IMG/VR virus record: IMGVR_UViG_3300003794_000007
Location: 1 to 34,727 of that record
Strand: one strand, 5' to 3'
Length of the DNA: 34,727 bases
From: a virus
The notes below the pieces were generated by a model. The model saw nothing but the letters and a program-made list of their open reading frames with translations. It was not told the DNA's origin and made no database searches. Of the stretch, positions 14,420 to 21,386 are shown piece after piece. The stretch's first letter is position 1. Every line of letters starts with the position of its first letter. The position numbers and the translations under genes were made by a program.

Positions 14420-14644
14420 ATGACTTTCGACAGCGCCTATAAGCCGAACCGCGACAACCTCTCGTCGGAGATCGCAGCCATGATGGATCGCGCATTCTAT
14501 TCCCGGCGCGCGAAGGGCTTTAATGTTCAGTTCGTCAACGAGCTTGGCCAGAAGGACGAGTGGTCGTTCAACTGTCGCGAACGCGCTGAAGCATTCGCGG
14601 AAGCATTGGCGAAGAAGGGTACTGAAAGCGCGTTTTCGGCCTAA
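14420..14644 (+). CDS. Small hypothetical protein, lone rightward early gene (74 aa)
   Basis: ATG 14420 has AAGGAG with a CACCACG spacer, a variant of the phage's common leader. The product (MTFDSAYKPNRDNLSSEIAA onward) is soluble and charged, with two helices (SSEIAAMMDRAFYSRRA and RAEAFAEALAKKG). No domain is recognised. It is the only rightward gene in the middle of the window and has its own operator-linked promoter. It ends tail-to-tail with the cytosine methyltransferase, and the two stop codons overlap. Confidence 0.7.
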   Translation: MTFDSAYKPNRDNLSSEIAAMMDRAFYSRRAKGFNVQFVNELGQKDEWSFNCRERAEAFAEALAKKGTESAFSA

Positions 14645-15888
14645 GCGGCGCGGCGGGCAGGCTCTGTGACCGCCGCAAGCGCCCGTTCCACCCTCAAGAT
14701 GGCTCGCCCGATGGCTTCTGGGATTTGCGGGCAGACGGCGTCACCAAACGCCTCGACGATGAGGCTTGCCGCAACAGTCCCTTTTGGACCGCCGACTGCA
14801 ATGCGCGACTGAGCCACCCAGCCGGATAACCCATCATCCACCCGTAAGTGATAGGCAAGGCCGCTGTTCCAGTCAGCCCATGGCTCTGCAACAGGCTGGC
14901 TAGGGCTCTCGCTCCCGCCCATTTGTGCATATTGGCGTCCATGGTACCCGTCTCCAATTCGTGCATCGCTTGGTGCATGTGTTCCCCCAGTGGTCGACCC
15001 CGTGGATGCTTCCATGCATCCGACCCCGCCCGCCCACGGCCCGCGTCCCGCTTCACTGGCGTCGGCAGCAATTGCCGCTCGCCCATCGCCTTTGTCGTTA
15101 CCAGAGACACGCCTGTCGTGTTGTTGGCCAGCGCCTTGCTGATCTCCGGACCATGGTGCGCATCCGATTTCCTCGGAGTCGGCATCCCCGCATGCTTCGA
15201 CGGATAGCCCCTCAGTTGCGACAGGATATCCCCGCGCCCACCCCTGTCCGCATCTGTCTTGCGTGGCGTGGCCAGCATCACGTTCCATGGCTGGCACGAC
15301 TCCCACTTCTGCATACTTGGCGCTGCGAAATTTGCCTGCGTCGTCGGCGTGTGAAAGATTGAACCCGATAAGCCAGCTTCGCTTTCGCTCGTGGTTGGCG
15401 CCGACGTCTCCAGCACTAACCACGAATGGCCAGCAGGTGTAGCCGATTGCCGCCAGCGCATTGATGACCCGGTCTGCGCCTCGAGTTCGGAGATTAGCGC
15501 TATTTTCAAGAGCGAACCAACGAGGTCTGCATTCGTCGATGAGACGGATGGCTTCGAAGTAGAGACCGGATCGCTCTCCGTCGACACCTTTGCCTTTTGT
15601 GTTGGCGCTGCTGATGTCCTGGCACGGCGGGCTGCCGACGATGATGTCTGGAAGTCCAACACCGTCCCGAATAAGTCGGTCTGCTGTGAGGGTGGTGACA
15701 TCGTCATAAACAAGAACTCCCGGGTTGTTTTCGGAATAGAGCGCGCGGCGCCAGTCGATCACCTCGCATGCCGCAATGGTGCGATAGCCGGCGCGGTGCA
15801 TACCGAGGGACCAGCCACCAGCCGCGGCGCTGAAAAGGTCGAGGACGCGGATGGCGTGATTGTCGTTTGCTGCTTCAGAATGGCGCAC
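14641..15888 (-). CDS. C5-cytosine DNA methyltransferase (415 aa)
   Basis: It transfers a methyl group from S-adenosylmethionine to cytosine C5. Motif I is DLFSAAAGGWSLGM (17-30), the catalytic Cys89 is in GSPPCQDIS, ENS is at 128-130, HERKRSWLIGF (about 167) is motif VIII and EAFGDAVCPQIPEAIGRAI near the end is motif X. The middle (about 180-340) is low-complexity Asp/Ala/Gly/Ser sequence with repeated ADAS/DADSE phrases, as in phage Dcm-type enzymes. An ANDN motif lies at residues 7-10. The start overlaps the upstream gene by 14 bases. A second open frame of 339 codons runs through the gene. It probably protects phage DNA from restriction. Confidence 0.88.
   Translation of the reverse strand: MRHSEAANDNHAIRVLDLFSAAAGGWSLGMHRAGYRTIAACEVIDWRRALYSENNPGVLVYDDVTTLTADRLIRDGVGLPDIIVGSPPCQDISSANTKGKGVDGERSGLYFEAIRLIDECRPRWFALENSANLRTRGADRVINALAAIGYTCWPFVVSAGDVGANHERKRSWLIGFNLSHADDAGKFRSAKYAEVGVVPAMERDAGHATQDRCGQGWARGYPVATEGLSVEACGDADSEEIGCAPWSGDQQGAGQQHDRRVSGNDKGDGRAAIAADASEAGRGPWAGGVGCMEASTGSTTGGTHAPSDARIGDGYHGRQYAQMGGSESPSQPVAEPWADWNSGLAYHLRVDDGLSGWVAQSRIAVGGPKGTVAASLIVEAFGDAVCPQIPEAIGRAILRVERALAAVTEPARRAA
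14694..15713 (-). CDS. Overlapping open frame inside the methyltransferase, TPxxxD-repeat type (339 codons)
   Basis: The frame is open for 339 codons on the same strand as the methyltransferase. It has repeated phrases FHTPTTQANF, LATPRKTDAD, MPTPRKSDAH and LLPTPVKRDA, then YGWMMGYPAGWL near the end. From memory this matches a group of phage proteins that start with a DLF-type segment, carry LPTPTAxD repeats and end near EWLMGFPxGW. Those phrases are exactly the shifted reading of the methyltransferase ADTD-type repeats. It may be a genuine overprinted gene or a shadow that is widely annotated. No ribosome site is clear. Confidence 0.3.
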   Translation of the reverse strand: MFMTMSPPSQQTDLFGTVLDFQTSSSAARRARTSAAPTQKAKVSTESDPVSTSKPSVSSTNADLVGSLLKIALISELEAQTGSSMRWRQSATPAGHSWLVLETSAPTTSESEAGLSGSIFHTPTTQANFAAPSMQKWESCQPWNVMLATPRKTDADRGGRGDILSQLRGYPSKHAGMPTPRKSDAHHGPEISKALANNTTGVSLVTTKAMGERQLLPTPVKRDAGRGRAGSDAWKHPRGRPLGEHMHQAMHELETGTMDANMHKWAGARALASLLQSHGLTGTAALPITYGWMMGYPAGWLSRALQSAVQKGLLRQASSSRRLVTPSARKSQKPSGEPS

Positions 15889-16261
15889 TTTTCAAAGCCT
15901 CCCTCACCCCATGAATGCACCCCTCCCACGCCGCCTTCACCAGCATGCGCTGCATGAGCTCGTCGTAATGCGCCAGATCTGTCACGCCGCCGTTGTCGGC
16001 GATCCATTCACCTACTGCATCAACACCGGCATCCAATGCCTTGAGTTCAAACACGGAAAGCCTATCCATCTTTGACAGATCCGAAACCGCCACGACGCAC
16101 TGGCGGCAAAGGAACCCCGGATCGATCATCTTGCCGCCCCTGGTGATGGCGCGACCGATGCCCAATGCAATCCGGCCGCAGGCCATGCAGGTGGTGGGTG
16201 TGCCTGCGTCGTCGCAGGTGGGTGTGATCGGTAGGATGGGGCGGGATGGGATGGCGGTCAT
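15875..16261 (-). CDS. Small Cys-containing phage protein, DUF6511-like (128 aa)
   Basis: Two Cys pairs (CMACGRI and CRQC, about residues 25 and 53) suggest a zinc ribbon in the first half. The second half is helical (YDELMQRMLVKAAWEGCIHGV). The overall pattern reminds me of DUF6511, an uncharacterised phage family; that name is from memory. It lies between two DNA methyltransferase genes, coupled by ATGA to the one before and overlapping the one after by 14 bases, so a role in the modification module is possible but unproven. Confidence 0.6.
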   Translation of the reverse strand: MTAIPSRPILPITPTCDDAGTPTTCMACGRIALGIGRAITRGGKMIDPGFLCRQCVVAVSDLSKMDRLSVFELKALDAGVDAVGEWIADNGGVTDLAHYDELMQRMLVKAAWEGCIHGVREALKSAPF

Positions 16262-17538
16262 GCTGCCACCGTGGCGGCGCGGGTGGTGAATAGGTCACCG
16301 GCTGGTGAATTATCATTGGCTGCGACAGGTTGCGCTGGCGCGACAACTGGCTCCTTGTCCATATGCCCGATGGCCCACGCAATCCGCGCCGTGGCGATCG
16401 GCATGTATTCGTCTTCGCGCTCGCACCCGATGAACTGGAAGCCCTCAAGCACGGCTGCTTTGCCTGTCGAGCCGCTACCCATGAAAGGATCCAAGATGAC
16501 GCCGCCCGGTGGCGTGACGAGGCGGCAGAGCCACTGCATGAGAGTGGTCGGCTTGACAGTCGGGTGGGTGTTGGCGCGCAATGTAGCGTGTTTGGCTTCC
16601 TCACTTTCGCGGGGACCATTGACACGCATGTTGTTGCCTTTCGGCAGATGGTCGAGACCAGCATCCCGGTCAGCACGGCTGGCCTTGGCGCAGTAGAAGA
16701 AGCGGGCGGCTGACTTGTCGAGCTCGATGCGTGGTGCAAAATGCTCACGCGCGCCGAAGTCGCCATAAATGCCGCGGCTTTCCTTCTCTCCGTGTTCCGG
16801 ACCAACGGCACGCTGCTGCCCCGGCGCATCAGGAAACGCCGCCAACACCTCGTCGCTTCCGTCGTGGACTATGTTGGCTGGCCAGCGGCCGATGGCGGTC
16901 CGACCGCCATCCTCTGCACCCTTGAACTGCCCGTAGATCTCGTTGCGGCTGGCGGATGGATTGAACCGCTCCTCATCCCCAACCCGGCAACCATCAACGT
17001 TGATAGCACCAACACCCCACTCGGCGAGGTTCACGGCAACGGTACCGGCGAGCGGCTTCCGCGCCAGGGCAATCGGTTCCCACGCTGGCTTTAGGGCAGT
17101 GCCCCAGCCCTCCCACTCGCCGTGCTGGTTGTGCGACTTCGGAAACCCCGACCCGTAGACCCAGCCCAACTGGTCGCGGATTTCGAAGCCAGCGTCCTCG
17201 ATCGCGACAGCCATACGGTGATAGGTCCGCGTGCCGGAGAACGCCACGACATGGCCGCCGGGCTTGAGTACCCGCAGCACCTCAGCCCAGAACTCCTCGC
17301 TGAACGCGACCTCGCCGGTGTCCCACTGCTTTCCCATGAAGCCAGCTGCGCCGCGCCCGTAAACGTCTTTGGCCGGGGCGGAGCCCGGCTTGCCGAAACG
17401 CTTCTGGATGGAAACGAGCGCATAAGGTGGATCCGTCACCACCGCATGAATGGAATTGTCGGCAAGGCTGCGCAGCACGTCGCGGCAGTCAGCCTGATGC
17501 AGCACGACTCTGCCGTCGTGCATCGTTGTCACGCTCAT
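16258..17538 (-). CDS. DNA N6-adenine or N4-cytosine methyltransferase, beta class (426 aa)
   Basis: Catalytic motif IV TDPPYA lies near the N-terminus (35-40) and the SAM-binding motif DPFMGSGSTG near the C-terminus (350-359), the beta-class order. Between them a long insert (about 120-330, with GWVYGSGFPKSHN and HPTVKPTTLMQWL) matches phage and prophage members of the family. The last 70 residues are an unstructured tail with an ANDN motif. DPPY alone does not separate adenine from N4-cytosine targets. The start has AAGAGGAGACCACC and begins a block coupled to the small Cys protein and the cytosine enzyme. Confidence 0.9.
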   Translation of the reverse strand: MSVTTMHDGRVVLHQADCRDVLRSLADNSIHAVVTDPPYALVSIQKRFGKPGSAPAKDVYGRGAAGFMGKQWDTGEVAFSEEFWAEVLRVLKPGGHVVAFSGTRTYHRMAVAIEDAGFEIRDQLGWVYGSGFPKSHNQHGEWEGWGTALKPAWEPIALARKPLAGTVAVNLAEWGVGAINVDGCRVGDEERFNPSASRNEIYGQFKGAEDGGRTAIGRWPANIVHDGSDEVLAAFPDAPGQQRAVGPEHGEKESRGIYGDFGAREHFAPRIELDKSAARFFYCAKASRADRDAGLDHLPKGNNMRVNGPRESEEAKHATLRANTHPTVKPTTLMQWLCRLVTPPGGVILDPFMGSGSTGKAAVLEGFQFIGCEREDEYMPIATARIAWAIGHMDKEPVVAPAQPVAANDNSPAGDLFTTRAATVAA

Positions 17539-20213: not shown

Positions 20214-21386
20214 TTAGTCCTTATACGGATCGAATTCAGAGGCCCCGGCCATGATGACGCCGCGCGGATGCAGAACGTGTTCAATAGAGATCGTGCCCGA
20301 ATGTGCGGCCAGAACCTCCGGCAGACGGCGGTATGCCTGCGGCGCCTCGTCGAGATCGCTGCCCAAAACGGTCACGCCCTTATCGCGGATCCACTGCTGC
20401 CATTCGTCGTGGCGCACCTTTCCAGGCTGGCGGATCTTCTTACCATCCACCTTCACGAACCGGCCGCGCGCCTCCGTGCGAGACATAACGCGACCGGCGC
20501 CATGAACGGTCGAGTATAGCGCCGCAGCGCTTTCGGCGCTGTCCACGCCGCTCAGAATGACGGCGTCGTCTCCCATAGACCCGCCGACGAATCCGAACTG
20601 CCCCGGAAAGGCGGGTGTCGCACCCTTTCGAACGACCCACATATCGACGCCGCCGTGCGTTTCGCGCCAAGCGAAGTTGTGATGGTTGTGAACCTGAAAG
20701 GTCACGGCGCCACCGATGATCTTGCGCACCCGCTCGACCACCCATTCACGGCCAGCGTAGGCGTACAGCCCGCCAAGCTCAATGCCTGCGAGATAGCCGC
20801 GCCCCATGTCGCTATCGGCTGGCATAAGCGCCGGTGGCACTTCCATGCCGTCCTTCGCCCCGGCCATCCCCAGATATTTCGTCGTGATCTTGTGGCCAAG
20901 ACCGCGAGATCCGAAGTGCACGCCGATCCACGTTGCGCCGTCGTCATCTTCGAAGATATCGACATAATGATTGCCTGACCCGACCGTGCCAAGCTGGCCT
21001 TGAGCCATGGACTTAAGTTCCGGCACGTCTGCAGCGCGCCAAAGGTCGTCTCGGTCGAACAACTCATGCTCGACGCGCTCTTCGTTTTTTCGGCCAACGC
21101 CGAACGAAATGACGGACTGAATGTCTTGAAGTATGGTGCCGATGTGTGCGGAAATATCGGCATATGGGGTGTCTAACCGCACCGCCATGTTGCCGCACGC
21201 GATGTCGAATCCGACGCCGCTGATGCTGATGTGGTCGGTGTAACCAACCACGCCGCCGATTGGGTGCGCGTAGCCGAGATGGCCGTCGGCGCAAAGCACT
21301 CCAGCTGCAGCGCTTCCCGTGTTCATGCATGTTTCCATCTGGCCGATGGTGCGGTCATCGTGCTGACCGTAAATCTTGAAGGTCAT
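20214..21386 (-). CDS. rtcB: RtcB family RNA ligase (390 aa)
   Basis: RtcB joins 2',3'-cyclic phosphate or 3'-phosphate to 5'-OH RNA ends using GTP and manganese. Motifs in order: ADGHLGYAHPIGGVV (33-47), GVGFDIACGN (57-66, metal Asp and Cys), GTVGSGNHYVDI (133-144), GVHFGSRGLGH (155-165), HNHHNFAW (233-240), RKGATPAFPGQ (253-263) and HGAGRVMSR (295-303), where His295 should carry GMP. All key residues are present. It has its own operator-linked promoter and the common leader. In a phage it could repair tRNAs cut by host anticodon nucleases. Confidence 0.93.
   Translation of the reverse strand: MTFKIYGQHDDRTIGQMETCMNTGSAAAGVLCADGHLGYAHPIGGVVGYTDHISISGVGFDIACGNMAVRLDTPYADISAHIGTILQDIQSVISFGVGRKNEERVEHELFDRDDLWRAADVPELKSMAQGQLGTVGSGNHYVDIFEDDDGATWIGVHFGSRGLGHKITTKYLGMAGAKDGMEVPPALMPADSDMGRGYLAGIELGGLYAYAGREWVVERVRKIIGGAVTFQVHNHHNFAWRETHGGVDMWVVRKGATPAFPGQFGFVGGSMGDDAVILSGVDSAESAAALYSTVHGAGRVMSRTEARGRFVKVDGKKIRQPGKVRHDEWQQWIRDKGVTVLGSDLDEAPQAYRRLPEVLAAHSGTISIEHVLHPRGVIMAGASEFDPYKD

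Follow-up and report, generated by a model that had tools for sequence, protein, structure and literature searches.

Nested reading frames in a virus genome are predicted to encode the two subunits of a split C5-cytosine DNA methyltransferase

In C5-cytosine DNA methyltransferases, motif IX and the region that recognizes the target lie between conserved motifs VIII and X. The multispecific enzymes of Bacillus phages of the SPR and phi3T type are single chains with their recognition units in frame, and in the two-polypeptide enzyme M.EcoHK31I, the gene for the large chain also contains that for the small chain, in a different reading frame. Gene callers tend to drop one of two overlapping genes, and to our knowledge well-supported cases of long overlapping genes are uncommon in double-stranded DNA phages and bacteria. 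According to a passage in PMC3404938 that cites Lee 1995, M.EcoHK31I (YGGCCR) has motifs I to VIII and X in its larger chain and motif IX in its smaller chain, both chains are required, and the predicted recognition domain lies in the large chain. M.AquI is split inside the variable region, with motifs IX and X both in the small chain (PMC3404938). In the literature that we searched, we found no paper on nested phage C5-methyltransferases and no explanation of a nested second product.

The window analyzed here, a whole 34.7-kb virus record, carries two nested frames, A and B, on its minus strand (Table 1). An earlier note had drawn attention to a 339-codon frame at 14694-15713 inside a cytosine methyltransferase gene and had left it undecided between genuine overprinting and an annotation shadow. 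We found this frame on the minus strand, with a TTG start and shifted by +1 relative to the methyltransferase open reading frame (ORF) of 415 aa, and it contains all of the peptides attributed to it (TPRKTDAD, TPRKSDAH, TPVKRDA, and YGWMMGYPAGWL). The extent given for it is correct for the open frame, but the conserved start is not the TTG but the ATG at 15707, which gives a coding sequence of 14694-15707, and WMMGYPAGW, which had been taken for the end of the protein, actually lies about 40 residues short of the frame-B C terminus. The codon argument of the same note, that LPTP shifted by one base reads ADA or ADT, proved sound, as did its proposal that a single gene, read in two ways, underlies the two protein families. 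In a Pfam search, frame A matched PF00145 (1.2e-32) over profile positions 1 to 165 of 324 only, and frame B had no match. Among PHROGs, frame A matched phrog_363 and phrog_116, while frame B matched another family, phrog_1008 "DNA methyltransferase" (4.2e-14), which was also matched by 26/26 B homologs scanned. Elsewhere in the window, a second DNA methyltransferase (16258-17538, minus strand; phrog_67, 7e-74) shares an operon-like run with the C5 enzyme and sits just upstream of it, and an RtcB-type tRNA splicing ligase (phrog_1075, 4e-67) occupies 20214-21386 on the minus strand. A 255-aa ORF on that strand (16062-16829), which overlaps the end of the second methyltransferase, looks like a true shadow, as its homologs, read in +1 or +2, carry many stops.

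Table 1. Features of the nested locus, in window positions
Feature	Position	Strand	Description	Basis
Frame A, predicted catalytic subunit of a C5-cytosine methyltransferase	14641..15888	-	415 aa, GTG start; motifs I-VIII N-terminal, motif X C-terminal, open and unconserved variable stretch of ~150 aa between	PF00145, phrog_363/116, codon analysis
Frame B, predicted overprinted second subunit	14694..15707	-	337 aa from ATG, +1 inside A; TP-cassettes and motif IX-like WMMGYPAGW	Openness in intact homologs, synonymous constraint in A, kept ATG, phrog_1008 match
GGGAG, Shine-Dalgarno-like	15717..15721	-	9 nt 5' of the frame-B ATG; bases are the A codons Pro-Gly-Val	Sequence
Frame-B start codon ATG	15705..15707	-	89/89 loci	
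B residues 56-101	15405..15542	-	Conserved helix and beta hairpin (LVGSLL...TPAGHSWLVL), overprinted on A motifs VI-VIII	
B residues 118-261	14925..15356	-	Four TP-cassettes belonging to a repertoire shared among B proteins: FHTPTTQ, LATPRKTDAD, MPTPRKSDAH, LPTPVKRDAG	Alignments, cassette analysis
B residues 288-299 (YGWMMGYPAGWL), motif IX-like	14811..14846	-	A reading of the same bases: RVDDGLSGW	
A motif I (RVLDLFSAAAGGWSLGM)	15799..15849	-	Outside B, third positions free to vary	PF00145 match
A motif IV (VGSPPCQD), catalytic cysteine	15616..15639	-	Invariant among homologs	PF00145 match
A motif X (EAFGDAVCPQIPEAIGRAIL)	14695..14754	-	A amino acid conservation 0.93, third positions variable	

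Homologs were sought with B, A, and a B profile as queries, which yielded sets of 38, 25, 64 (from bacterial genomes, chiefly of alphaproteobacteria), and 65 loci, and the +1 relation was found nearly everywhere among the 117 distinct loci with both hits. We defined an intact set of 91 loci in which both frames are intact, A has motifs IV and X, and B has the WMMG element. Since the loci were collected by peptide patterns, the sample is biased toward conserved B; in a set seeded by frame-A patterns alone, B was present too, except at frameshifted, deleted, or fragment loci. Some metagenomic homologs (L024, L036, L039, and L063) have frameshifts or deletions, and L063 has lost the region with motif VI. 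We considered these four single-ORF variants as fused enzymes and rejected that reading, because the single ORFs reflect deletions or frameshifts in metagenomic contigs. In deposited Rhizobium phages, the annotation covers the methyltransferase frame only. Rhizobium phages RHph_X2_25 and RHph_N2 are cultured phages that carry the pair.

If frame B were an annotation shadow, GC-rich third-position bias together with conservation of the methyltransferase would keep the +1 frame open and superficially conserved. The GC-rich genomes, the abundance of S, T, P, A, R, and G in B, and the presence of other long spurious ORFs in the window all fit such an origin. However, when synonymous A codons were resampled at 90 loci, approximately 286 stops were expected in frame B, or about 3.2 per locus, and none was found. 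Resampling of synonymous B codons likewise predicted approximately 293 stops in frame A across the cassettes, again with none found, and each of these genes has 7 to 20 stops when read in +2. The lack of stops in both A and B, set against these expectations, argues that both frames are translated. For a negative control, we analyzed eight homologs of the neighboring N-methyltransferase gene, and found no conserved +1 ORFs, 4 to 12 stops in the +1 frame, and a fourfold-site identity of 0.41. A shadow also fails to account for nested pairs near 50% GC and at loci with a GC content of 0.41 to 0.47.

Because the third codon position of A is the second codon position of B, nearly all silent changes in A alter B, so that the overlap is readily testable. 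In a column-by-column comparison of 33 sequences, A third positions were free before the B start and frozen within B; GAT GAT, read as part of RVDDG in A and as WMM in B, is kept in 33/33 sequences, and GCT, CTT, and GCC are also invariant. Across 91 sequences, A fourfold-site identity increased from 0.47 upstream of B to 0.77 at B residues 64 to 102 and 0.93 at B residues 287 to 315 (Mann-Whitney P = 4e-5), with invariant third bases in up to 91/91 sequences, and it was 0.77 to 0.83 over B residues 56 to 101. Thus, substitution at A-silent sites is reduced in the overlap (0.77 to 0.93, versus 0.47 upstream), and the invariant third positions (GAT GAT, GCT, and CGC) fall where the codon choice is free. 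In 20-codon windows, A was more conserved than B at the N terminus and at motif X, and B was more conserved than A over A residues 193 to 372, save for the poorly aligned residues 253 to 272. An overlap-aware substitution estimate for the cassette region gave a dNN/dNS of 0.13 for B and a dNN/dSN of 1.0 for A. On these estimates, B is the selected protein in the cassette region and A merely a stop-free linker, a pattern that a shadow does not predict and that has no counterpart in the neighboring gene. Both frames are constrained in the vicinity of A residues 330 to 373, and the codon data indicate constraint on both frames at motifs VI to VIII and near motif X. We therefore rejected the annotation shadow on the codon tests and the neighboring-gene control and regard it as extremely improbable; the lowered substitution at A-silent sites, with the conserved initiation site, decides the question raised by the earlier note in favor of overprinting, and we are nearly certain that the second frame is real.

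We also found the nested pair in gammaproteobacterial genomes (GC content, 0.41 to 0.63) and in Stenotrophomonas, Lacticaseibacillus, and Paenibacillus phages. In Paenibacillus larvae phage Diva (DIVA_49/DIVA_50), the nested +1 ORF is annotated as "g49 internal gene," and in Paenibacillus phage Bloom, it is annotated as a second DNA cytosine methyltransferase. In a group of environmental phages with about 50% GC (L241-L271), A (~247 codons) and B (~246 codons) overlap over nearly their whole length, the codon at which B terminates is conserved, and the +2 frame has 9 to 23 stops; most members have the A and B starts spaced by 4 nt (ATGAATG) behind one Shine-Dalgarno-like element. The B proteins of this group align to motif IX of single-chain enzymes and match the window B weakly (30%) in direct profile alignment. 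The L241-L271 loci form an independent group with the same nested pair, and the layout recurs in very different phages, where gene annotation has mostly missed it. A C5-methyltransferase gene with a GC content of 0.38 (L278) has motifs I to VIII and X and three TAA stops in a phrog_1008-like +1 frame, which is possibly a decayed or rearranged B.

An initiation signal for the second frame, which the earlier note had named as part of a test, is present: in 89/89 alignable loci a frame-B ATG lies near A codon 60, at most a few codons away, compared to 72.0 ± 3.6 expected, and in the window it is preceded at 9 nt by GGGAG. The offset from A codon 60 varies by homolog (-8, +4, +7, or +10); since the place of the ATG differs between clades, the start codon is kept by alternative means. 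A Shine-Dalgarno-like element accompanies the start ATG in many loci, and at several loci a frame-B stop lies immediately 5' of it. The first ~100 residues of B are already constrained, with an A fourfold identity there of 0.60, then 0.77. These data also bear on programmed frameshifting, in which ribosomes would switch to frame B past motif VIII and return to frame A ahead of motif X, yielding a single full-length chain. Single-chain relatives exist, and a fused A-B-A order restores a canonical enzyme, but two recoding events would be needed, and the constrained B N terminus lies 5' of any switch. In addition, B begins at the very start of A in the L241-L271 group. The constrained N terminus and the conserved ATG and Shine-Dalgarno-like element favor internal initiation of B, and we consider frameshifting very unlikely.

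We then compared the content of the two frames with that of known and related enzymes. Frame A has motifs I to VIII and X and lacks a recognition domain, and no motif IX was found in it at any of the 91 intact nested loci. Single chains with motifs I to VIII, LPTP cassettes, EWMMGWPAGWVT, and GNGVVPQQ in frame are represented by gp76 of Mycobacterium phage Rita and its relatives. B matched the variable region of such single-chain enzymes in profile-profile comparison (probability, 96.8%; E = 2.5e-10), and WMMGYPAGW of B aligned with the place of their in-frame motif IX; the single-chain relatives have the same motif IX-like element after the variable region and before motif X. A model of a single-chain actinophage enzyme superposed on M.HhaI over its whole length (residues 2 to 415; Z = 19.4, root mean square deviation of 3.4, 228 residues aligned). 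Modeled alone, B had a mean pLDDT of 57 and was confident only at residues 56 to 101 (pLDDT of 83 to 92 across most of the stretch) and in the C-terminal helices; the cassette region is disordered in the single-chain model too. We dropped B as a standalone known fold, as PDB searches by sequence and by fold gave no significant match.

The piece missing from A, the cassettes and motif IX, is thus supplied by B, so that A and B are probably halves of one enzyme. B could instead be an overprinted protein with a function of its own, such as regulation or anti-restriction, and with borrowed cassettes, in which case A would act alone or with a host partner; consistent with this, the N-terminal part of B is not found in single-chain enzymes and the B fold is poorly predicted. 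However, the cassettes and WMMG element of B are exactly what A is missing and stand in frame there in relatives, and the two overlapping annotated genes of mycobacteriophages Catalina and Jarcob place motifs I to VIII in the first chain and the cassettes, together with motifs IX and X, in the second. A separate function for B is therefore very unlikely in our judgment, and the predicted role of B as the recognition and motif IX subunit of the same split C5-methyltransferase is well supported by the sequence comparisons. Two actinophage loci show further arrangements. In Gordonia phage Baddon (L068, 1900-3500), the cassettes are in the +1 frame and motifs IX and X are in frame with A, so the split of parts between frames is not universal. 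Rita gp76 (L067, 2025-3191) has more LPTP cassettes upstream in the +1 frame in addition to those in frame, which suggests that cassettes may move between frames.

We propose that overprinting at this locus gives rise to a C5-cytosine DNA methyltransferase of two subunits. Frame A would provide the large catalytic domain, with motifs I to VIII and X, S-adenosylmethionine (SAM) binding, and the catalytic cysteine, and frame B, translated from its own internal ATG, would provide the small domain, with an N-terminal helix and hairpin, a TP-cassette recognition array, and motif IX. We infer that the two chains assemble into one active enzyme, with the cassettes in contact with DNA, which would methylate the phage genome, presumably against host restriction.

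The middle of B is a string of units of 25 to 45 residues, each opening with xxTP. In 51 parsed B proteins, we counted 190 units, which fall into 30 types, recurrent or unique, and a slightly stricter grouping (36 types) gave 39 distinct orders. Near-alike backbones were found with differing cassettes, and divergent backbones with almost identical ones. The cassette order is mostly fixed (31/34 pairs), so that gain and loss of cassettes within a set order and free shuffling are equally likely. No protein has the same cassette type twice, compared to 18.9 such cases expected; this is no proof of distinct specificities, because the fixed order alone could cause the absence. The different cassette combinations suggest a modular target specificity, and we see an even chance that the cassettes are separate recognition modules; that each has its own target is our working hypothesis. 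More tentatively, at somewhat less than even chances, the nested architecture may be a widespread and repeatedly retained one in which B is a swappable specificity subunit of site-specific TP-cassettes that are recombined to change restriction protection. If so, PHROG 1008-like LPTP proteins would be the specificity subunit, and one DNA strand would serve two proteins. Since the overlapping products appear to be halves of one enzyme, the overlap has a testable functional logic. A split enzyme would also assign a function to the LPTP type of phage protein, which is common but "unknown," supply the missing piece of many phage methyltransferases that seem to have no recognition domain, and provide a natural system of swappable methylation specificity.

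The closest characterized enzyme, and the one that the predicted pair would resemble in function, is M.EcoHK31I, which shares with the window a large chain with motifs I to VIII and X but not IX, and a small chain with motif IX. In contrast to that enzyme, the predicted recognition cassettes of the window sit in the overprinted small chain, where B and not A is under selection, and the pair is phage-borne with a recombining cassette array. M.AquI is similar as a natural two-chain C5-methyltransferase, but the clade of the window keeps motif X in frame A; a small chain with both motifs IX and X is found only in the mycobacteriophage relatives, so that the two-gene versions of Catalina and Jarcob are the M.AquI-like ones. 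Like the SPR and phi3T type of enzyme, the window locus is phage-borne and its variable region is built of modular, exchangeable units, with recognition by these units predicted, but its modules lie in the +1 frame and are in frame only in the actinophage relatives. Finally, the nested ORF of Diva, whose pairing is known from annotation alone, has the same nested +1 layout as the window, where B matches PHROG 1008.
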